From: Singulisphaera sp.
GTDB taxonomy: Bacteria > Planctomycetota > Planctomycetia > Isosphaerales > Isosphaeraceae
Reading direction: 5' to 3'
DNA: 52,591 bases
Assembly (NCBI GenBank): GCA_027451445.1
Contig: DAIDJG010000160.1
Span: forward strand, 1-52,591
Shown here in pieces: positions 4,971 to 21,234 of the stretch. The position numbers and the translations under genes are program-made. Numbering within the stretch: the first letter of the stretch is position 1; the number at the start of each line of letters is the position of its first letter. The notes beneath the pieces are model-generated. The model worked only from the letters and a program-made list of their open reading frames with translations. It was not told where the DNA came from and searched no databases.

Positions 4971-5273
4971 ATGCAAGCGATAACTACGCCCACCACCGAC
5001 GCCGCGATCGTTGGCAGGCTTGATAAGCCCGACCACAGCGATTTCTCCGTGGAGACGGCCCGCGAAATCCTGAGCATCCAGCTTAGCGAGGCGGACCAGG
5101 TGCGGATGCGGGAACTCTCCGAAAAGGCCCAGGACGGCACGCTTACGGCGAGCGAACAGGGCGAGGTGGAAAGCTACCGCCGGGTCGGATATTGGCTTGG
5201 CGTCCTGTGGTCCAAGGCCCGCCTTTCGTTGAAACACGCTGGCATGGACGCTCCGAATGGATATCACACTTGA
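4971..5273 (+). CDS. Small conserved-looking protein paired with HNH nuclease
   Basis: A 100-aa polar, largely helical protein: FSVETAREILSIQLSEADQ, then VRMRELSEKAQDGTLTASEQ, then a YRRVGYWLGVLWSKARLSLK tail. No catalytic motif is visible. It overlaps the following HNH gene by 17 bp, implying a two-gene translational unit. From memory, similar small helical proteins precede HNH nucleases of this type in planctomycetes and cyanobacteria, but I cannot confirm this here. It could be a partner or an inhibitor of the nuclease. Function unknown. Confidence 0.75.
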   Translation: MQAITTPTTDAAIVGRLDKPDHSDFSVETAREILSIQLSEADQVRMRELSEKAQDGTLTASEQGEVESYRRVGYWLGVLWSKARLSLKHAGMDAPNGYHT

Positions 5274-5664
5274 GCGGCTGGTCTGGCAACGGGCCAAATC
5301 TCGGTGTGAATACTGTCAACTCCCGCAGCGCTTCTCGCCGCTGCCACACGCGATCGATCACATCATCGCCCGCCAGCATCGCGGACCTACGAAAGCGGAA
5401 AACCTCGCTCTCGCCTGTTTCTTCTGCAACAGCTACAAGGGTCCGAATATCTCCAGCTTGAATCCACAGACCGGGAGAGCCGTGCGGCTATTCAATCCAC
5501 GGAAGGATCGTTGGAGCCGGCATTTTCAGTGGAACGGTCCCTATCTCACCGGCCGCACGCATACCGGCCGCGTTACGATCATCCTGCTTGAAATCAATCG
5601 AGCTGAGGCAGTGGAACTCCGCGAGTATCTGACCCGTGAAGGATCGTTTCCACCCACCGAATAG
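5257..5664 (+). CDS. HNH endonuclease
   Basis: A 135-aa protein with a compact HNH fold. It has a zinc pair CEYC at residues 18-21, the catalytic block AIDHIIARQHRGP (His-His around residues 34-40), an N-x-ALAC segment and a second zinc pair CFFCN. The C-terminal part, SSLNPQTGRAVRLFNPRKDR followed by WSRHF, is typical of small stand-alone HNH proteins. The start overlaps the end of the preceding small gene. The pair sits between intact pntB and a defective copy of the pntB 3' end, so it arrived with, or caused, that duplication. The substrate is unknown. Such proteins range from homing-type to defence nucleases. Confidence 0.9.
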   Translation: MDITLERLVWQRAKSRCEYCQLPQRFSPLPHAIDHIIARQHRGPTKAENLALACFFCNSYKGPNISSLNPQTGRAVRLFNPRKDRWSRHFQWNGPYLTGRTHTGRVTIILLEINRAEAVELREYLTREGSFPPTE

Positions 5665-5694
5665 GGGACAGGGCGATCACTTCAGAAATATCGC

Positions 5695-6089
5695 ATCGGG
5701 TTTGATTCGGTCCATCAACATGAAGGCGATGAACCGCTCGTTCACCAACGTCCTCTTCGGCGCGTTCGGCCAGGAGCAGGCCTCGGCCGCCGGTGCAGAG
5801 CAGGGGAGATCCGTCAAGAACGCGACCGCCGAAGAGGCCGCCGCCATCCTCGCCGCGGCAAACTCGGTGGTGGTCATCCCCGGCTACGGCATGGCTGTCG
5901 CCCAGGCCCAGCACTATGCCGATCCTCGACGTGGACAAGGCACGCACCGTGATGGTCATCAAGCGTGGCATGAGTCCCGGGTTCGCGGGGATCGACAACC
6001 CGCTGTACTACCTGGACCAGACGTTGATGCTCTTCGGCGATGCGCGGTCGTTCGTGGGTTCGCTGGTGCGCGAGCTGTCGGGAAGCTGA
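5695..6089 (+). pseudogene. Second, internally deleted copy of the pntB 3' end
   Basis: The sequence matches pntB from about 4209 to its stop. One codon is missing after the Asn-Met pair, and about 251 bp (original 4430-4680) are deleted, which removes most of the NADP-binding domain and breaks the frame. Outside the gaps, ten single-base differences were counted after that Met codon, and all ten are synonymous. The last ~110 bases are identical, including the tga and the next bases. There is no 5' part, so it cannot make a working subunit. The synonymous pattern suggests the copy diverged while it was still a functional gene, for example in another strain. Confidence 0.9.
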
Positions 6090-6371
6090 GCGATCTGAAC
6101 AACAAGGAGATAGGCCACCTTCCCTTCGGCGCGACGTGGTCCAGTCGACGGCGATCTAAGCCGTTGATTTAAAAGTGGTTGTGAAAATGGGAGCAACGTC
6201 ATCCTCTTTATTTCCGGCGCGCCGAGTGGTACAAGGTACCTAAGAGTCCATCCCTTATCGGAGGGAACGACCGATGGAGGGTGTCGGCCATTTCCGCGTC
6301 GACCGACGCGCTATGCAGAGCTTATCGGATAGCCGCTTTGCGCTCGATACGAGCCACGGGAGTTACACGGC

Positions 6372-9104: not shown

Positions 9105-9398
9105 TTAACCCGGCATCCTTGCTACGATGTCATCGTAGCCTGGTGCCACGTACAGGTCGACCGCCCCGTCGGCCTCGGGCACGAAGCGTGCGACCGGGTT
9201 CAGGACGACCTCGACGGTGTCCTTCTCCATGAGCAGGACCGGGACTCTGTAAGTACCGAGCCGGCGCTCGCTGAGCGTCTTGGCGATCCGCCGGGTCCGC
9301 CAGCCGGACGCTCGAGCCCCGCCCGCGACCTCGCCCACGAGGCTGTTCAGGCGGCCCACCCACTCGTCCTTCACCGCGTCGGAGTCCTCAATCCTCAA
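9105..9398 (-). CDS. Hypothetical protein
   Basis: A 97-aa frame with plausible protein character: charged N-terminus (MRIEDSDAVKDEWVGRLNSL), then TYRVPVLLMEKDTVEVVLNP, then ARFVPEADGAVDLYVAPGYD and a short end. Strongly GC-biased third positions and an alternating hydrophobic pattern support coding. I do not recognise a named family. It converges with the gene scrap ending at about 9100. It may itself be a shortened remnant. Confidence 0.45.
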   Translation of the reverse strand: MRIEDSDAVKDEWVGRLNSLVGEVAGGARASGWRTRRIAKTLSERRLGTYRVPVLLMEKDTVEVVLNPVARFVPEADGAVDLYVAPGYDDIVARMPG

Positions 9399-10398: not shown

Positions 10399-11379
10399 CT
10401 ACAGCGAGGTGACGAGCGCCGTGTCGTGGAGGTGCTGACATCGAACCCCTCCTCTCTGACCCTTCCGGCGAAAAGCGACCATGGTGTTCCGCTCGTACTG
10501 GCCCTCGTCCGACGCCGCAGAAGAAAGCTTTGCAAGAATTTCTGGGAAATTGAAGGTCCCGGCGGGTGCCTCGATTCGCTCATCAATCGGCTCGCTTTGA
10601 TATCGGGCCTGCGCCGACCCGTCCGAGCGGATGTCGAGATTCCAAGGCCCGTACCTCATCAGATGGATCTCGATGACCGGCCCTTGGTTCTTCATCAAGA
10701 ATTCCACACCCTCATGGTGGTTGGCGGCGAGAAAGGGGTCTCCATCCCCCCATAAAGCTCCGACGAGAACGTCCCCCCAGAGATCGTAGTGCTGGGAGCT
10801 TCCATGCACGTAGGGTCCGTTCGACCAGACAGGCACCGCCGACGCACGTTCGGCATCGAAGCGTCTGGCCAAGCCCTCGTCACAGAGGTAAAGTCGTGAC
10901 CCCAGCGTCAACTCTTGCAAGGTGAACGTCACGAGGAAGCGTGAAAGCGAGTCGCAGACGAGCCGCTCTCCTTGAAACCATGTCCCATCCTCGTTCATGT
11001 GGTCTCCGTAACACCAGACGGGTGGATCGTCACCGTTGGTGAGTGTTCGGCAGTGCCAGCACGCTTGGTTCTCCCAGAGGAAGACGATCTTGCCGTCGTC
11101 CTCGAACTTCACCCGATCGAGGGCGACTAGGCTGTCCTGATGCGAGAGTGCGGACACTGTGTACTCGACCGGCTCGTCGCTCTCCCGATCCGGCCAACGA
11201 CCGGCGAACTCATAGAGGCGTCGAAGCGGCAGAGGAAGGGGGCGCTCATCCAGACCTTCAGCCGATTCCCCGAACGGTGGACGGCGTGGCCCAAGCCAGA
11301 ACTCGATGAAGTCGCATAGGGCGTCCATCCGGGCACTGGCGGTCACGGCCTCTAGCAGTCTTGGATGGAACGTGCTCAT
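10399..11379 (-). CDS. SMI1/KNR4-like (SUKH) protein
   Basis: A 326-aa soluble protein. The segment LPLPLRRLYEFAGRWPDRES, followed by LDRVKFEDDGKIVFLWENQ and a DDPPVWCYGDHMNEDGTWF region, resembles the SMI1/KNR4 fold: a conserved LP-x-x-L-R-x-L-Y-x-x-x-G entry followed by beta strands with a W-E-N-Q turn. SUKH proteins often act as immunity proteins to secreted toxins, but single-domain SUKH genes are also common without a toxin. None is adjacent here. ATG 11379 (MSTFHPRLLEAV) is preferred; 11391 is a possible earlier start. The C-terminal third is unassigned. Confidence 0.65.
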   Translation of the reverse strand: MSTFHPRLLEAVTASARMDALCDFIEFWLGPRRPPFGESAEGLDERPLPLPLRRLYEFAGRWPDRESDEPVEYTVSALSHQDSLVALDRVKFEDDGKIVFLWENQACWHCRTLTNGDDPPVWCYGDHMNEDGTWFQGERLVCDSLSRFLVTFTLQELTLGSRLYLCDEGLARRFDAERASAVPVWSNGPYVHGSSQHYDLWGDVLVGALWGDGDPFLAANHHEGVEFLMKNQGPVIEIHLMRYGPWNLDIRSDGSAQARYQSEPIDERIEAPAGTFNFPEILAKLSSAASDEGQYERNTMVAFRRKGQRGGVRCQHLHDTALVTSL

Positions 11380-11561
11380 TAAGATCCTCACCGCTCACGA
11401 TTTGCCGCAGAGGGCGGGCTCGTCCCTACCCAGCCGTCCCGATCTACATCGGTGACACAACTGTCTCCACCTTCAAAGCGCCCGCCGACGATCGGCAATT
11501 AGAATGCCAGTCCGGTGTCCGAGTTCAACCGGTACGTTACACTGAATCAGGACCGAGATCC

Positions 11562-11748
11562 TGGCCAGGCACTAAACTTAGGGGACCTATGGTCGTCGCG
11601 CCGGACTGTGGCAGTGTTGGCCAGATGCTAAACTTAGGGGACTTATAGACGTCGCGTGCGATTTGTTCCTCGTACGTTGTCATGCAACGAAACAGCGCAG
11701 TTCACGCAGAGCACCCTGGTTTTGTGCCTGGCCAGGATCTGTCCGCCC
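11562..11748 (+). repeat. Left flanking direct repeat of the AAA+ ATPase gene
   Basis: The full unit is 11618-11748. It matches 15452-15580, on the far side of the ATPase gene, over its whole length in the same orientation at roughly three quarters identity by eye. Shared blocks include ctaaactt, agacgtcgc, gatttgttcctcg, gttcacgcaga and caccctg. A partial extra copy of its first ~39 bases lies at 11562-11600. The unit ends 4 bp before the stop end of the ATPase gene. Confidence 0.8.
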
Positions 11749-11752
11749 TCAT

Positions 11753-14700
11753 CTATGATCGCTCATCAATTATTGCTGTAAATCCCTTGGTAAACAATTC
11801 TTTCAAAACTTTGTTCAAACCATTATACTCTCGAAGTAAAATTGAACGGAAGCTACCATCAACATGCATTTGAAACTGGCCTGCAGAAGGCAGGCAGGTT
11901 TTCGAGAATTCGCGCTGTTCGTGTAGAGTGCTCATGTCGACAATAGACTCGATGGATCGCACGCCGTGAAAATAGCGGAAGGACAGCAACATCGCGTTCA
12001 AGACATCTTCGTCGAAGTAAGCCCGCCTATTGACGTCGAGGATCGCCTTCTCGGTGTCGGCGATTCGCTCGATAATTTGCCGGATGATGACCGCCCTCCG
12101 AACGACAAACGAGAAGTTCTCGTCATCCCCGAAATCTTCGGTTCGCTTTGACCCAGACTCTTCGAGTTCATACGAAGATGGGTGCGTACGTTCGACGACC
12201 TCAGGATTGACACCGACGATATCCAGGAACCCGCGCAGCCTGCTATGAAAATCCGGCCCCTTCGCTGACGCATACCAGTCTTTCTCCGCGTGTTTTCCGT
12301 AGCGGTCCGCCCAAAAATTCGCGCTGCGAAACGCGGAGTGTGCCGGAGCAATGCCACCGGCGAAGACAAGGATTGCCTTGCCGATTCCGAGCATGTTGTC
12401 GTGATGCTGGAAACGACCGTCCTGCATCGGGGCCAGGAAGTACTTTAACCATCCCAGCGGCTTACCCTCGAACTCACAATCGAACTCGTCGAAGAAGACG
12501 AGAGGTAGTCGGTCGTCGAGACCAGCGTCGCGCACCTGAAGGAGCAACTCCGTAAGTTGATTAAAGGACGAGAACTGCGCGAGGTTGAATGTGAACTCCT
12601 CGAGCCGGCTGCGTCGCCCCGCCACCTCTTGCGCGAGCTGTTTCACACCGAACGACTTGCCAGAGCCTGGCGGACCGAAGACAGCGACCGAGATGGGAGT
12701 CCGACGATCCATTCGGCTGAGGTATTCTGCGAAGAGGTTTTTGATGCTACGCAATCCTTCAATTTCGCGGCGCTCCACCACAAGAAGTTTGCCGAACAAC
12801 GCAGAGGGAAAATTCGGTTTCGCTTCGTGAAAGGCTCGTTGCGGACCGAGCAGGACGATTTTGCGACCGAGATCGAGCGCGTTACGGGCAATCTGGGCGC
12901 GTCGGTCTTCTGGTAGCGATTGCGATGAAAAGTGGTGAGGGCGGACGTGCCTCAAGTGTTCACCGAGTATGCTCCGATAGCCAGAGAAACTGTTGTCGCT
13001 CAGTTTGTGTGCCTTAAAAACACCAAACCTATGAGCACCCCGATTGACGCAACCGTCGAGTGGTGCATCGCCAAAGAGTTGGACAATCGGCAGCCGAAGG
13101 TCTTCAAAGAGTTTCACCGTCCTTGGCTCGGGTCCGTAGCCCAAATCGTAGTAACGGCGACACGACTGCAGCGCAAATTTGATCCCGTCTTCGATCGGGA
13201 TCGGAGAAATAGGAGAGATTTCGCCCTTCTCACGTCGTTCGTTCCGCCACGAGCGATAGAGTTTTCGTATGAGGCCGGCGACGAACACTGTAGTCAGGCC
13301 TGCGAGATCGCCGCATTGAACCGCGTCGCTGTACTCTCCCTCGATCCGCTCCCGGTCGAAGAATAGCGACAGACTCCCGAAATTCTTCGTCTCCTGGACG
13401 TCTTGCCGCGCTTCATCGACATCGTCTTCGTTCGAATCTCGCGACCAATGAAGCGCACCGTCAAGACCAAGTCGGACGATAATGTGACGGCACTCACATA
13501 GCGCCCCGAGCGCCCCCTCGCCTACGGCACGATGAAAATCCTCAATCGTACGTTCCCACGAGACTTTCTTTGCGAGCTTGATTCCTGGGGTCCCTTGAGG
13601 ACCAATAAATCCATTGCGCAGCGTCTCGCCAGATACGACCAGGATGCAACGGTCTTTCAAACTGGTCTTCTGAACAAACTTTAGCAGAAGTGAATCTCTC
13701 ACCTTGATCCAGTGACTCGCCTTGATGACGAGCCAAACGTGTTCCAAGTAGTGTTCGACCCGATTGTGCCATTCCGCCAACTGAAGCACCTCTTTCTCGC
13801 TGCCGTCGGCGAATCCGCGAACATTTTCGACACAGTCAGCCGGAATGAGGAATGGCACCCAGAATCTCGCGTCTTCGCTGTAGCCGAGCCCCTCGTCATC
13901 CACAACGACGATCGTTGGACAAGATTCGGTTGCTGAAGCGCTCTCGAATTCCTGAGCGAGCGGCGAGTTCGGGATGTTCGCCCAACTCTCGTTCAAAATG
14001 GTTGGTGCGGAAGCTTGCGGGCCCTCGACTCCGTGTGCGATCGCGCGTCGATACACGCGCCCACCGCCCTCGGAATGGGGAACATGCGCTGAGAATAAGC
14101 GTAGCTCACTGAGAGTTCGGACGACGTATTCCGAATCGGCCATTCGGATACTTTTCCCTGGGTGGGCGTAAAACCAGATGAAGTCCTCCACGTTCGTGTT
14201 GGCGAGTTCGAACTCATGCGGCCGCGGTTCTTGCGGAATCTTCGCGCGCATGATCTCGATCTGCCTATCGCTTGCGTTCTTCCAGCCGTGGTTCAGCTTC
14301 CCGAAGTCGACCATCCGGGCGTGTACATCGAACCGGCCCGAGAGAACTTCCACTTTGCCGGTATCGAATTCGAAACAAGTCTTATTGTTTTGACTTTTTG
14401 CATCGTGGGCGAGGATGTTAAAGCCCCTGCCAGGATCGTCAGAAACGATCCGGATGCCTGAACCAGGCGCCGGTTGGATGCTACACAGCTCGCCAGTTTC
14501 AGACTCAAGTCGGATCGAAGTGATCGACTGTCCGGTAACGTAAAGCTCGATCGCATAGAACGCAGCGCGTTTCTCGGCGTCCCGAACGCGAAACCTGCAC
14601 GCTTCAAAGCATCGCTTCGTCTGGCTGACTTCAATTCGTCCGGGTTTGTCGTCATCCTCTGTGTTGAACTCCAGATCGCAGTTGTGCACCCCAAGTTTGA

Positions 14701-15166
14701 CGTCGATCGTGTGACTCGATCGCTTCAGGCCAGCGTGACGTTTGATTGCGGGACTGTTGAGGGTAATTTTAATTCCGGAATACTCGCATCTTTCTTCGTT
14801 GACATACACGATCAACTTCGTCTCGGGCAACGGCTGAATAGAAAACAGTAAATCTTGTTCATCTTTTGCGTCAATCTCATAGCGGCCCTCCAGACGAATG
14901 TCGATTCCGTCCCTGACCCGAGCCTCGTACATGCGCGAAAACCTGGGCCCTTCGAGCGCAGCCTGCACCATGTGTCCCGTGAACCAAGCCCCGCCAGGAA
15001 TTGCAAAGAGATGGGTTCCCGGATTATATGTCCAAGGTTGTTTCGGGACGCTTCGACCTTTCGGAGGTTCCTGGGAAATGAAAGCGTAATCAACTCCAAC
15101 ATCTCCAATTACTGCAACACGTATCTTTGAGATTCCAGTCATTTCTGACAGTTTGGCTTCCCCCAT
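11753..15166 (-). CDS. Ribokinase-like plus AAA+ ATPase fusion, candidate defence protein
   Basis: A 1137-aa soluble protein. ATG 15166 is chosen because gaggggt lies about 6 bases before it; the frame is open to 15220. The N-terminus has a PfkB/ribokinase-like first strand (KIRVAVIGDVGVDYAF, about residues 14-29). After a long insert, later PfkB-like parts follow: ILVVSGETLRNG, then CRHIIVRLGLDGALHW, then VQCGDLAGLTTVFVAGLI, which corresponds to the GAGD catalytic region with C-G-D retained. The C-terminal AAA+ domain has Walker A GPPGSGKS (831-838) and Walker B VFFDEFD (Asp at 893, Glu at 894). A tail reads FRYFHGVRSIESIVDMSTL and resembles, from memory, the end of RyR-associated bacterial AAA ATPases. 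Base composition is visibly lower in GC than its neighbours, implying transfer. A role in anti-phage defence or ligand sensing is inference only. Confidence 0.85.
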   Translation of the reverse strand: MGEAKLSEMTGISKIRVAVIGDVGVDYAFISQEPPKGRSVPKQPWTYNPGTHLFAIPGGAWFTGHMVQAALEGPRFSRMYEARVRDGIDIRLEGRYEIDAKDEQDLLFSIQPLPETKLIVYVNEERCEYSGIKITLNSPAIKRHAGLKRSSHTIDVKLGVHNCDLEFNTEDDDKPGRIEVSQTKRCFEACRFRVRDAEKRAAFYAIELYVTGQSITSIRLESETGELCSIQPAPGSGIRIVSDDPGRGFNILAHDAKSQNNKTCFEFDTGKVEVLSGRFDVHARMVDFGKLNHGWKNASDRQIEIMRAKIPQEPRPHEFELANTNVEDFIWFYAHPGKSIRMADSEYVVRTLSELRLFSAHVPHSEGGGRVYRRAIAHGVEGPQASAPTILNESWANIPNSPLAQEFESASATESCPTIVVVDDEGLGYSEDARFWVPFLIPADCVENVRGFADGSEKEVLQLAEWHNRVEHYLEHVWLVIKASHWIKVRDSLLLKFVQKTSLKDRCILVVSGETLRNGFIGPQGTPGIKLAKKVSWERTIEDFHRAVGEGALGALCECRHIIVRLGLDGALHWSRDSNEDDVDEARQDVQETKNFGSLSLFFDRERIEGEYSDAVQCGDLAGLTTVFVAGLIRKLYRSWRNERREKGEISPISPIPIEDGIKFALQSCRRYYDLGYGPEPRTVKLFEDLRLPIVQLFGDAPLDGCVNRGAHRFGVFKAHKLSDNSFSGYRSILGEHLRHVRPHHFSSQSLPEDRRAQIARNALDLGRKIVLLGPQRAFHEAKPNFPSALFGKLLVVERREIEGLRSIKNLFAEYLSRMDRRTPISVAVFGPPGSGKSFGVKQLAQEVAGRRSRLEEFTFNLAQFSSFNQLTELLLQVRDAGLDDRLPLVFFDEFDCEFEGKPLGWLKYFLAPMQDGRFQHHDNMLGIGKAILVFAGGIAPAHSAFRSANFWADRYGKHAEKDWYASAKGPDFHSRLRGFLDIVGVNPEVVERTHPSSYELEESGSKRTEDFGDDENFSFVVRRAVIIRQIIERIADTEKAILDVNRRAYFDEDVLNAMLLSFRYFHGVRSIESIVDMSTLHEQREFSKTCLPSAGQFQMHVDGSFRSILLREYNGLNKVLKELFTKGFTAIIDERS

Positions 15167-15451: not shown

Positions 15452-15580
15452 GGCCATGCAACTAAACTTCGGGAACATACAGACGTCGCCTTGGATTTGT
15501 TCCTCGCACATTGCCGCGTCAGGGAACGGTGCGGTTCACGCAGATCACCCTGATTTCACGTCTAGCCGGCATCTGCCTCC
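15452..15580 (+). repeat. Right flanking direct repeat of the AAA+ ATPase gene
   Basis: This is the partner of 11618-11748. It starts tggccatgcaactaaactt, has the same gatttgttcctcg and gttcacgcaga blocks, and ends with the caccctgatttcacg module that also occurs alone elsewhere. Both copies are on the plus strand. Together they bracket the ATPase gene and its leader with almost nothing else inside. Confidence 0.8.
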
Positions 15581-15591
15581 GTGGACGACAC

Positions 15592-15924
15592 TCACCACGG
15601 GATGGGCAGACAATGCACCAAGGTGTTGAGGCGTTTCCGGGCCTCCTCGATCGTAACCGCAGCAGGTGGATTCTGATCGTCGCGTCGGTGCACCAGGAAG
15701 TTGCGATACTCACGCACCTCGTAAACGGCATCCCGGACGTCTTCGGAGAGAGAGCGAGCGTGCTTGAAGTCAGCTGTCCCATCGATCAGGTTTCTCGTCC
15801 TGATCAGGTCATCGTGGTCCCCCGTGATGTGACGACGGTACGAGCGAAGCGCTGTCTCAAACTCGGCCCGCGTCCGGAAGATGCACCCTGGTTTTGGGCC
15901 TGGCCAAAATCCGCCCTCGATCAA
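15592..15924 (-). pseudogene. C-terminal fragment of a HEPN-like protein
   Basis: The frame gives RAEFETALRSYRRHITGDHD, DLIRTRNLIDGTADFKHARS, then VRDAVYEVREYRNFLVHRRD and a short tail. RNFLVH fits the HEPN RNase signature R-x4-H at the end of a long helix, and the whole is alpha-helical. The apparent N-terminus (MIEGGFWPGPKPG) is just translation of a dispersed repeat (15883-15917), so the true 5' part is gone. HEPN domains are common in toxin-antitoxin and defence systems. The residues present are not enough to call an active enzyme. Confidence 0.55.
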
Positions 15925-18900: not shown

Positions 18901-19994
18901 CCGGGCAGGCATCGCGATGAGCCGCGACTCCTGTCGATCGCCGCCAGACGTCGTGCGAGCCCGGGCGATCGTGCCATCGCCAATCCCAGCGACTGTTGAG
19001 GACGCCGGACCAGCTCTGAAGCAATCGCGAGCAACGTGGCCCGGTATCTGGTCGCGCCGCCCATCTCGTGAATCGAGAAGGCGTCACAGGCTCTCTCACG
19101 GGCTTCCGATGCGGACCGGGCGAGCAACCACGCCAGAGGGTGGAAGCCGTAGATCGAGACGACCAGTTGCTGGAACACGTTCCAGGCGTAATCGCCACGG
19201 CGGACGTGCGCGAGTTCATGTAACAGAACAGCGTCCGCATGTTGATCGGGGTCGAGTGCGGCCGCCGAGGTCGGCAGGAGGATCTCAGGACGACGCCAGC
19301 CGACGACGACCGGTACGCTCACGGCAGCCGACCAGGCGAGGCGGACTCGTTTTTTGAGCCCGAGCCGGTTGTGCCAACGTTCGAGCGCTGCGTTCCATGC
19401 GGGGTCGTCCACGGAGATCGCGTCGCGTCGAAGTCGGATGACGACGCTGAGCCCGTGAATCAGCCGCGCTACCAGGAGGGTGACCGCGAGGACGTAGGAT
19501 GCCACACCAAGGAGGGCCAGGCTGAACGACCGTGCCGCCGGCGACAGGACTCGCGAGTCGACCGACTCGACTCGAACGCCGGCGGCGTGCGAGGGGCTCG
19601 CACCCGGCTCGAGAGAGACGGTGTCGGTCCGGGTAGAAGCGCTTCTCAATCGCTCGATCTCGGCGTCCTGTGTCCCGGGCATCATGGACCGGATCTCTGC
19701 CGACTCGTCGTGCACAGCGTCCGAGGAGCGCGACCCGACGGATACGGACGGTACGGGTGCTGGTCGTTCATCGAATGCGGGTAGACAGGCCACGGCGAGT
19801 GGCGGGAGTGTCGCTACCGCGAGAGGAAGGAACAACAACCCAGCAAACCCGGCGTTGGCGACGGTCGCGGCGAACGAGGGTCGCCAGCGCATCGATACCC
19901 GCACGACGACGACCACGATTGTCAGCAAGGCCGTGGACCTAACCGCGACGTCAAGGACCGTCGAAAGCCAGCTTGTTCCGATCAATGCGATCAC
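15921..19994 (-). CDS. BlaR1-type M56 peptidase sensor with carboxypeptidase-regulatory repeats and a thioredoxin-like C-terminus
   Basis: A 1357-aa membrane protein. The N-terminal ~390 residues form an M56/BlaR1 unit: hydrophobic helices near residues 13-37, 43-70, 150-175 and 368-388, and the zinc protease motif HELAH at 259-263 with a downstream EARERACDAF. The middle holds about six beta-sandwich repeats of the carboxypeptidase-regulatory type, with signatures such as DEQGRPIAGATVYLW, DAYGQPVAGATVYSS and DSEGKPVENAFV. The last ~140 residues are thioredoxin/AhpC-like (AGDSAPPFEVTTVDGKT, KVLLLDFGTLWDQQSA), but the CxxC is absent: after W1252 the sequence is DQQS. The GTG start overlaps the blaI stop (GTGA). 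Presumed role: sense an external signal and inactivate the BlaI repressor. The ligand is unknown. Confidence 0.9.
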   Translation of the reverse strand: MIALIGTSWLSTVLDVAVRSTALLTIVVVVVRVSMRWRPSFAATVANAGFAGLLFLPLAVATLPPLAVACLPAFDERPAPVPSVSVGSRSSDAVHDESAEIRSMMPGTQDAEIERLRSASTRTDTVSLEPGASPSHAAGVRVESVDSRVLSPAARSFSLALLGVASYVLAVTLLVARLIHGLSVVIRLRRDAISVDDPAWNAALERWHNRLGLKKRVRLAWSAAVSVPVVVGWRRPEILLPTSAAALDPDQHADAVLLHELAHVRRGDYAWNVFQQLVVSIYGFHPLAWLLARSASEARERACDAFSIHEMGGATRYRATLLAIASELVRRPQQSLGLAMARSPGLARRLAAIDRSRGSSRCLPGWTVRFAIAIVGLALAMVVSVARLTRSEAPPAVDKAEAAQAETKGKAVSAPVKVLHLQVVSAESGKPVPNANVRVWIDMRDEWRITDERGRLDIRHSTGPGDKNVGVDVWGDGFAMQRHNWGYKPGEPVPGEATVKLIAGESLGGTVQDEQGRPIAGATVYLWSHNYKKNTSEILFDLRATTDSAGRWKTSGAPETTGELLGISIDHPDYLSDRDYMADRAKPRIADLRAGTAVSVMTKGVPIEGRVVDAYGQPVAGATVYSSRSQDHLGNDVREFAVSTDDAGHFRTGQVRSETNYLVAIARGHAPGERSVDVGKAVPQIEIRLGRPRAFVGRVVDSEGKPVENAFVNVDSWRRYRFLRVFLYTDHDGRFRWDDAPDDPLEINVHRQGYVGISRQRVEPSAEDVTFTLKASLSVHGKVLDAETKKRVERAAIEYGEADPKTGDVAKWVAMPSTGIGVVVFKGDLNLNIPVAADAYRFRLVAEGYEPFVSRVIRRDETAVYDYDINLAPIKPGAEPVATVLRPDGKPLVGARVYRGVLNESNLNLQDGEVHTGRESGRDIRTSAEGTFTVTSLAKPWMVLIVGDDCFAYASKDAIAASPNIQARPYATVEGRYLIGSRPGAKLRVELSGHIQDRSTMFCHLFFHASATTDDEGRFRFEKVMPTSDLRVGRRDPGNATDRVWSLGVPVHVDPGASVTVAVGGTGRSVVGRVEPPEGWTAPIDFTQNARASIESNRPFIPYPLSLFRGKTSLQGGAWSEWSQRWRESPEGQAYSDRRVAVAVGLSPDGSFRLDDLPAGEYRLTVYVNEPRPFGETGPFARLVQVFTIPPIPGGRTDETFDVGMLRLRRRAVLKAGDSAPPFEVTTVDGKTLAVPGDFKGKVLLLDFGTLWDQQSAFQITRMNDVYKRFGDDPRFAILSLTLAPDDAETRKYIAEKGEPWPQAIVGNLSNPIASAYGVHDENVHGAILIGPDGKLIAAGLYYDKIGKLIAEALEKN

Positions 19995-20395
19995 TTCCGA
20001 TCTCCTTTCGTGGATCGTTTCCTGGGAGCAACGGGCTGCGTCGATCGTCGAAGGTTGTCGAGCTGATCCGAGGTGAGTTGTTCGTCTTCGATCAACCTGA
20101 GCACGAGGTCCTCGGCGGACCCTTTGAAGAACCGTTCGAGCAAACCGTGAATCGCCTGACGCTGGGCCTTGCGCCGTTCGATCGCGGCGCGGTAGATGTA
20201 GACCTTGCCGCGGGCCTCGTGGGACACGAAGCCCTTCGCTTCCAGAATCCGCAGCAGGGTTCGCACCGTCGAGTCGTGCGGTGAACCGGCCAGCCGTTCG
20301 CGAACCTGCTCGGCAGTGGCCTGGCCGAGTTGCCAGATCGCGTCCATGACCTCGGCTTCGCGCTCGGTCAGCACCTCGGACTTCTTGCGTGTCAT
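19991..20395 (-). CDS. BlaI/MecI/CopY-family transcriptional repressor
   Basis: A 134-aa protein beginning MTRKKSEVLTEREAEVMDAI, with the winged helix ATAEQVRERLAGSPHDSTVR, TLLRILEAKGFVSHEARGKV and YIYRAAI. The C-terminal half holds the dimerisation and cleavage region expected of BlaI. ATG 20395 is preferred over an upstream frame extension because the family N-terminus is there. It is translationally coupled to the M56 sensor. Together they form the usual two-component derepression pair, probably autoregulated. Inverted cgttaaa/tttaacg half-sites lie in the leader at about 20410 and 20480 but are too far apart to call an operator. Confidence 0.93.
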   Translation of the reverse strand: MTRKKSEVLTEREAEVMDAIWQLGQATAEQVRERLAGSPHDSTVRTLLRILEAKGFVSHEARGKVYIYRAAIERRKAQRQAIHGLLERFFKGSAEDLVLRLIEDEQLTSDQLDNLRRSTQPVAPRKRSTKGDRK

Positions 20396-21234
20396 GGTCT
20401 TGCCCTTCGTTAAATCGTTAACACTTCGGGCATCGTACCGGCGTACCAACGTTCTTCGCAAGACCGACTGTTAGGAATTTAACGGTTTCTGAGGTGGTCG
20501 TTGAATCCCAATGAGAGGCACGATCGGCGCCCCTCGCCGACCACGACACACCGCGCAACAAAAAGCGTCTCAACTCTCGAGCTGCTGCACCACAGCAACG
20601 CGAACATTTCACCACGCCAGCTTCGCCCTGCGGGCTCGCCCCCAGCCGCCCAAGGCTTATCAGCTTAGGAACGGGCCGGTAATAAGTTCCCGATTTCGGC
20701 TCGGCTCGACTCGGCGAGATCGTGAGCCGCCATGGTGGCTCGCTCCTGAGTTTGCCCCGGATGGGGCATTTGATAGTAGCCCAGCGTTTTAACGCTGGGA
20801 TTGACGAAACCATTAAATTCTCATACGTCCTGGAGGGACGATTCGGGCTGGGCGTTGGCCGGGTGGCAAGGGCAGCCGCCCCGCTGGGGCGAAAACAATC
20901 AAATCAGACAGATGGGTGTTCGTCGAACCCAGCGTCAAAACGCTGGGCTATTGTCAATTGCCCCATCCGGGGCAAAGAGACCGACGGAACGCTCGTCTGC
21001 GAAAGCTCGACGGACCACGCTTACCGGAAGAGAAATCGGGAAGTTATTCCCGGCCTGTTCCTTAGCGCACGAACTCTCGTCCGGCTACGGAAAACCGGAA
21101 AACTGCACGGGCCTTGCACGATGGCCACTTCGAGGGTACATTCATTACAACCTAATAATGTTTGGGCCCCTCTGGGACCTTCCGTTTTCTTCACACGAAC
21201 CTGTTGATCGCTCCACTTCCGGGAGCCTCGAGGG
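20396..21234. other. Gene-free stretch with mirrored palindromes
   Basis: No gene is supported. The blaI promoter should lie at its left end and the promoter of the secreted-protein cluster at its right end. The middle holds the mirrored repeat pair 20752-20978. Confidence 0.6.
20752..20978. repeat. Mirrored pair of ~50-bp repeats, each with an inner palindrome
   Basis: The left arm (20752-20799) reads tttgccccggatggggca, then a short spacer and cccagcgttttaacgctggg. The right arm (20928-20978) is its near reverse complement: cccagcgtcaaaacgctggg, a spacer, then tgccccatccggggcaaag. Each 20-bp cccagcg block is itself a palindrome. The ~130 bp between them include gtcctggagggacg. The arrangement resembles REP/BIME-type elements. 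Confidence 0.8.

Follow-up and report, generated by a model that had tools for sequence, protein, structure and literature searches.

A probably horizontally acquired AAA+ protein of Singulisphaera with a ribokinase-like, predicted pseudokinase domain: a possible ligand-gated switch from a putative conflict-system family

The window analyzed here is the whole of contig DAIDJG010000160.1 (C160; 52,591 nucleotides) of the Singulisphaera sp. assembly GCA_027451445.1, a genome of 10.9 Mb in 622 contigs (G000). Its minus strand encodes a large protein, P0001, in which a region related to the PfkB (ribokinase) family at the profile level precedes a C-terminal AAA+ module. The gene is an uninterrupted frame of 1137 codons that runs from an ATG at 15166 to a stop at 11753, with GAGGGG immediately 5' of the ATG, so that the single 1137-residue protein described in an earlier, sequence-only reading of this DNA is confirmed. 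The parts of the gene, with the means by which each was delineated, are as follows.

11753..15166, minus strand: P0001, predicted pseudo-ribokinase / AAA+ protein of 1137 amino acids (open reading frame (ORF) call)
14912..15139, minus strand: first PfkB-like part, residues 10-85, with the first strand VAVIGDVGVDYAF and the motif GGAWFTG (alignment, profile comparison)
14162..14905, minus strand: insert of the branch that includes P0001 and locus L002, residues 88-335 (alignment; beta-rich in two low-confidence models)
13067..13879, minus strand: second PfkB-like part, approximately residues 430-700, with DDEGLG, a Lys, LR..SWERT.ED, VRLGLDGALHW and GLTT (alignment, profile comparison)
13289..13291, minus strand: Thr626, aligned with the catalytic Asp of the PfkB GAGD motif (profile register)
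11822..12811, minus strand: AAA+ module, residues 786-1115 (Pfam, alignment)
12653..12676, minus strand: Walker A, GPPGSGKS, residues 831-838 (alignment)
12479..12505, minus strand: Walker B, PLVFFDEFD, residues 888-896 (alignment)
12239..12241, minus strand: Arg976 of GPDFHSRLRG, unchanged in all 14 aligned rows and, judging by the motif, a candidate arginine finger (alignment)

The C-terminal module is the best defined part of the protein. The core residues of Walker A (G831, G834, G836, K837 and S838) and Walker B (D893, E894, F895 and D896) are invariant in all 14 aligned rows, P0001 included, in full agreement with the intact Walker A and B of the sequence-only reading, and the family core as a whole is marked by G.PG(S/A)GKS, VF(F/W)DEFD, FAG, DF.SRL.G and RRA. 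The SRL and G.RS motifs are also conserved and could correspond to an arginine finger and sensor 2, respectively. In Pfam, P0001 gives only subthreshold AAA-type matches, at approximately residues 802-897 (AAA, 19.7 bits against a cut-off of 21.2), and four of eight relatives pass the AAA cut-off; NCBIfam and PADLOC yielded nothing strong for P0001. Assignment to the STAND class had to be abandoned, with the best such profile, nSTAND_NTPase5, reaching 18.7 bits against a cut-off of 34.

P0001 is not a one-off fusion: it is one member of a family in which a PfkB-like domain is joined to this AAA+ core. We count 25 members, namely 24 in which the AAA core is present and the fragment L048, which was retained because its RyR domain and a neighbor are visible; the fragment L047 of genome G278 (a 3.6-kb contig) is outside all locus counts, and L045, L046 and L049, having the AAA part alone, were excluded. 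The first genome search matched 22 genomes, six of which (G023, G069, G102, G108, G391 and G395; weak matches, to the AAA part only) are not counted as family, and a later one matched 17, with ten weak ones likewise not counted. The members come from Planctomycetota, one Clostridia metagenome-assembled genome, two plasmids and one plasmid-like contig, the survey beyond Planctomycetota having consisted of one scan of genome contigs (1 relative among 17 stretches) and of a plasmid collection. Phage records contained no relative of P0001, and four scans of viral contigs returned at least 1. One contig labeled viral in IMG/VR (L061, IMGVR_UViG_3300048597_000653), which carries a RyR-less relative, resembles a conjugative plasmid by eye, with genes that look like those for a coupling protein, an antirestriction protein and TraI/RecD. 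Among the matches listed in a search of open-licence PubMed Central (PMC) full text, no description of the PfkB-like plus AAA+ domain order, with or without RyR, was found; the sequence-only reading, too, knew of no described system with this order.

In the tree of the 24 AAA cores, P0001 and L002 pair up (support 100/99), and L035 joins them at lower support (91/88); otherwise the tree is largely unresolved, and RyR-bearing and RyR-less members are interspersed. The group test made on this tree compared fused RyR with next-gene RyR only and thus has no bearing on RyR-bearing versus RyR-less members. The sister, L002, is 58% identical to P0001 over the AAA core, lacks RyR and is split into two frames; its contig is 5 kb long, so its neighbors are mostly unseen.

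What, then, is the N-terminal part? The family consensus of this domain consists of V.GDV..D, a GG motif, DD.GLG, a conserved Lys, LR...ISR.LSWERT..D, VV.FG.DGA and G-x-M-x-G. A PDB sequence search with the N-domain profile found no PfkB and no useful match, and a first profile-profile comparison, with nine N-domain sequences, was weak (probability 3%, E 0.014). For a second comparison, made with hhalign against eight PfkB proteins of the same genome, 22 N-domains were aligned (those of L044 and L089 are not among them), and four that are split, partial or divergent (L002, L039, L031 and L035) were omitted to give an 18-member profile. In local mode this profile scored 31.5 (probability 13%, E 0.002), compared with at most 16.4 for 60 column shuffles, a control confined to that mode, and no more than 15.5 for reversed PfkB, SLOG-SLATT, AAA and RyR profiles. 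The global alignment reached a probability of 77% (E 2.4e-6) and spans family columns 10-336 and PfkB columns 1-294; it begins with the first strand and ends at the C-terminal helices. The PfkB-like motifs perceived earlier are thus supported by profile comparison, with control profiles scoring far lower, and not by Pfam or the PDB sequence search; at the level of sequence profiles, a ribokinase fold of the N-domain is likely but unproven.

The same register bears on catalysis. The GAGD motif of PfkB aligns with GLTT in P0001, and when 21 members, P0001 included, were inspected by eye, none had an Asp at the catalytic position. Furthermore, the GG..N signature takes the form GGAWFTG in P0001, without the Asn, which is missing from the family consensus GGA as well. 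Given these two losses, we predict that the N-domain is a pseudokinase. The CGDLAG motif, for which the role of a catalytic-type loop had been proposed, proved to be a false lead: its Asp is variable in the family (GD, GE, GN, GQ, GR, GK and others), and the catalytic position falls on Thr626. The insert at residues 88-335 is common to P0001 and L002 and absent from compact members; it is poorly conserved, with 40 of 159 aligned residues identical, whereas the AAA part has 180 of 326. A PDB sequence search with the insert gave no useful match.

The link to nucleotide signaling comes from the relatives. In 13 of the 25 members, a RyR domain (PF02026) is fused to the protein or encoded by the next gene: tandem RyR domains are fused in eleven (L031, L033, L034, L036, L037, L038, L042, L044, L048, L063 and L086) and RyR resides in the next gene in L040 and L085. 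Pfam detects RyR in six of nine relative ORFs scanned, with E from 3e-8 to 2e-24, and the family RyR profile matches ryanodine receptors in the PDB. According to PMC13232231, the RyR domain of phage proteins is homologous to the animal calcium-channel domain, and phage RyR proteins bind or cleave the TIR-made cyclic ADP-ribose (cADPR) isomers 2'cADPR and 3'cADPR via H75, W78, H100 and D117 of RyDEP. In the family, the second RyR repeat has His-x-x-Trp in 13 of 13 cases (with Phe in L085). All four RyDEP residues are found at the exact spacing in L037, L042 and L063 and shifted by one residue in L086, and the other members keep them in part, L031 and L036 having His-x-x-Trp only. In L085 (6193-8784), the RyR domain is fused to RelA_SpoT, in a gene directly upstream of a family member that itself lacks RyR; the product of this gene is possibly an alarmone synthetase with a signal-sensing domain.

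The family often lies near genes for TIR domains and other NADases. A TIR (PF13676) or DUF4062 (PF13271) domain, the latter being a TIR-like NADase according to PMC13174449, is present at 9 of 21 Planctomycetota family loci versus 1 of 20 control stretches (p 0.009), in counts that were made over fetched stretches of unequal length, with family loci that are related to one another and control stretches that were picked by contig number or round coordinate rather than drawn at random. When the Planctomycetota loci are divided by RyR, 8 of the 11 that have it are positive, compared with 1 of the 10 that lack it (p 0.0075). DUF4062 occurs at L033 and L048, and a TIR gene at L034, L037, L040, L042 and L086, the one at L037 encoding TIR-STAND; in L044 the TIR is in the same frame. 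In addition, a ThsB_TIR gene neighbors L089, a member without RyR and without the PfkB part. Two of these loci have unusual layouts: L044 (917-6487) is one frame of 1857 amino acids with AAA+, RyR, TIR and WD40 in that order and 600 N-terminal residues that have no domain assignment, and in L089 the AAA+ member (778-2592), next to the ThsB_TIR gene (1-960), has a C-terminus that looks SLOG-like by eye, a PDB sequence search with this tail having given no useful match.

A comparison was also made at the level of ORFs. The neighbor set comprised 67 mechanical ORFs of at least 220 amino acids within 4 kb of 19 loci, some of which are surely not genes, and for the control, 67 were picked at random from the 139 ORFs that the same size rule yielded in 19 stretches of these genomes. 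TIR_2 was found in nine of the 67 neighbor ORFs, versus a conservative 1 of 67 for the control (p 0.017); TIR is not among the 25 families listed for the control ORFs, all of which have two or more members, and the one TIR that a genome search located across the 20 control stretches is in an ORF that does not belong to the 67. With an E limit of 1, a six-frame profile search of 12 loci detected neither a RyR nor a TIR concealed in other frames near RyR-less members; the TIR profile used, built from five sequences, misses the ThsB_TIR beside L089 found by Pfam.

A further recurrent neighbor is a gene whose product has SLATT-like regions behind an N-terminus that resembles SLOG; this gene adjoins the members in L032, L033, L034 and L086 and is one gene away in L037; the SLOG label was given by eye, SLATT_3 and SLATT_1 were under the cut-off in both proteins scanned, and the L086 gene was placed solely by a profile built for this analysis. 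A PDB sequence search with the SLOG-SLATT profile gave no useful match. Finally, a Methylobacterium plasmid carries a member whose annotation reads 'RyR domain-containing protein', with a SIR2 family gene in its vicinity.

Is the gene of foreign origin? The GC content of P0001 is 0.540 versus 0.633 for the window, as lower GC in the gene than in its neighbors had been noted by the sequence-only reading, and none of the 424 stretches of the same length (3.4 kb) that do not overlap it is as GC-poor (minimum 0.603); GC at third codon positions is 0.61, compared with 0.74-0.87 for the M56, pntA and pntB genes. A genome search found no paralogue in its own genome and no homologue in the 44 other genomes of the same taxonomic family, and the nearest relative belongs to a different family of the same class. 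The immediate surroundings contain the following features.

10399..11391, minus strand: P0002, neighbor of 330 amino acids with a weak SUKH-1 match (12.5 bits, cut-off 25.4; Pfam)
15592..15924, minus strand: P0003, upstream frame of 110 amino acids, DUF4145-like (19.8 bits, cut-off 23.1; Pfam)
11556..11740, no strand assigned: element resembling a miniature inverted-repeat transposable element (MITE), with 22-nucleotide terminal inverted repeats, 95% complementary, beside the stop of P0001 (repeat search)
15452..15575, no strand assigned: second, diverged direct copy of the MITE-like element, upstream of P0001, 75% over 114 nucleotides (repeat search)

Five further contigs of the genome contain matches to short pieces of the MITE-like element. 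An integron cassette array was considered for these repeats and rejected: shuffled sequences fold just as well as the repeat strands do (z -0.18, 0.36 and 0.91), and there are the terminal inverted repeats instead. The vicinity further includes NAD(P) transhydrogenase genes and a gene for an M56 peptidase, which is followed by a small gene (19994-20470). Five genomes of the family were searched with the window DNA; in four of them (G099, G115, G119 and G167) the M56 gene (38-57% identity) and the small gene were found, with no match to P0001 or P0002 in the stretches examined, and the congener G171 has short matches to window DNA only, so that no empty site is demonstrated in the nearest genome. 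The low GC content, the absence from the 44 family genomes, the nearest relative in another family, the M56 loci without P0001 and the flanking MITE-like copies taken together make horizontal acquisition probable, and the suspicion of a foreign origin has therefore held up.

A gene for 97 amino acids (9105-9398) and P0003 flank the P0001/P0002 block, and in G099 (L115, 6867-7744) their counterparts are adjacent, about 320 bp apart and about 70% identical; possibly, these two are a mobile gene pair that is split in the window. A PDB sequence search with P0003 gave no useful match. At 5257-6169 there is an HNH endonuclease gene followed by a fragment whose match to NAD(P) transhydrogenase beta is confined to positions 243-320; a near-full copy of the transhydrogenase gene comes just before. 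At 20751-20976 there is a 58-nucleotide inverted repeat, 90% complementary, with 110 nucleotides between the arms.

Taking all these observations together, we put at about even odds (a probability of roughly 0.5) the hypothesis that P0001 is a horizontally acquired, ligand-gated AAA+ switch from a family of conflict systems. Under this scenario, the ribokinase-like pseudokinase, or its insert, would bind a nucleotide-like or sugar-like ligand or a protein partner; this binding would license the C-terminal AAA+ motor, which might then oligomerize and remodel or unlock a target, and the family would act in cellular conflicts, probably against phages. In the RyR-bearing members, the trigger would most likely be an ADP-ribose-type signal from the nearby or fused TIR or DUF4062 NADase, read by RyR; P0001 has no RyR, and its trigger would therefore be read in another way. 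A bolder version, to which we give only limited credence, makes the family a new class of immune transducers, pseudo-ribokinase/AAA+ proteins gated by ADP-ribose messengers of TIR or DUF4062 enzymes through a swappable sensor (RyR, perhaps SLOG) and coupled to predicted pore-forming SLOG-SLATT effectors, with the insert of P0001 replacing RyR.

Several facts weigh against the switch hypothesis. Pfam matches PfkB neither in P0001 nor in any of nine N-domains, and AlphaFold models of P0001 (from a three-sequence alignment) and of the insert alone have a mean predicted local distance difference test score of 32 and 34, respectively; with the homology to PfkB below all curated thresholds and both models useless, the ribokinase fold is unconfirmed. 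Neither P0001 (by Pfam) nor its genome has a detectable RyR: G000, like the genomes of L002 (G304) and L035 (G137), gave no match in a search that was positive in three of three RyR-holding genomes. There is no TIR on C160, the two TIR matches of the genome being on C358 and C86, and no DUF4062 in the genome. A Pfam scan of ten further window frames brought up housekeeping domains, one HNH endonuclease and one helix-turn-helix protein, with the other frames blank, and for P0001-P0003 PADLOC gave only weak matches; the defence island suggested around P0001 is not supported. PADLOC kinase models are commoner in the control than in the neighbor ORFs (4 of 67 versus 2 of 67; 98 versus 39 PADLOC families matched overall), and the sampling of loci and control stretches described above calls for caution. 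With TIR or DUF4062 near only one of ten RyR-less Planctomycetota loci, P0001 may stand outside the immune association.

The same facts feed the strongest competing explanation, under which P0001 is a stand-alone metabolic or housekeeping regulator or chaperone, a ribokinase-like sensor of a sugar or nucleoside whose AAA+ part remodels an enzyme, the TIR link being confined to RyR-bearing members. Nine of the ten RyR-less Planctomycetota loci indeed have no TIR or DUF4062, and several neighbors of P0001 are housekeeping genes. However, a housekeeping protein is hard to reconcile with absence from 44 of 44 other family genomes, low GC and a nearest relative in another family, or with the same AAA core occurring with and without RyR in members that are interspersed in the tree, and we regard this explanation as rather unlikely. 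Less probable still is that P0001 is a decaying orphan that lost a C-terminal RyR sensor and its partner genes after transfer and retains little function, as might be suggested by the missing RyR, the lack of TIR on the contig and the MITE-like repeats on both sides: the frame of 1137 codons is intact, the invariant AAA+ residues are kept, and the RyR-less form is no fresh loss because the sister L002, with the same insert, shares it and the genomes of both L002 and L035 are without RyR. A last alternative is very improbable: an N-domain that works as a PfkB-type kinase and either produces a phosphorylated signal or modifies a ligand for the AAA+ part, an idea close to the sequence-only reading, in which the kinase-like part could bind or modify a nucleotide or sugar signal. 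Despite the full-length profile relation to PfkB, all 21 members inspected have another residue in place of the catalytic Asp, and neither P0001 nor the consensus has the Asn of GG..N.

Should the switch hypothesis be correct, a pseudokinase-controlled AAA+ motor downstream of TIR signaling would represent a new effector logic. A bacterial AAA+ family with RyR near or fused to TIR NADases would qualify as a host-side receptor candidate, and the role of bacterial RyR domains would become directly testable. P0001 itself contributes less, as a defined RyR-less member which suggests that a different sensor can be coupled to the motor.

Among known systems, the PfkB family (PF00294) is co-linear with the N-domain over its whole length, with the V.GD..D strand, the GG motif, the VV.FG.DGA strand and the following G-and-helix segment in register; unlike PfkB, our family falls under every curated cut-off, lacks the catalytic Asp and GG..N, and is fused to AAA+, and P0001 has an insert of approximately 250 residues. 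The resemblance to Thoeris, a TIR protein (ThsB) with a signal-gated effector, resides in the relatives, where TIR is near or fused to a domain of the cADPR-binding family and ThsB_TIR is beside L089, whereas no TIR is near P0001; Thoeris is not known to have an AAA+/PfkB effector. Conceptually, the work that comes closest is Burroughs et al. 2015, who reportedly delineated SLOG/SLATT and nucleotide-signal conflict systems. A gene that looks like a SLOG-SLATT effector is next to, or one gene from, five members, but none is beside P0001, and coupling of such effectors to PfkB-AAA+ was not found described among the matches listed in open-licence PMC. The MoxR-vWA and other nucleoside triphosphate (NTP)-dependent conflict systems of multicellular bacteria are, like our family, AAA+-centered and present in planctomycetes among others, with a proposed role in effector-complex remodeling, but RyR and PfkB have 0 occurrences in the paper on these systems (PMC7159879). 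Finally, RyDEP (PMC13232231) shares with the relatives of P0001 the RyR domain (PF02026), which in them is tandem, with His-x-x-Trp and, in part, the H100 and D117 positions; RyDEP, however, is a counter-defence protein of a phage, whereas in the family of the RyR-less P0001 the RyR domain belongs to a bacterial AAA+ protein.

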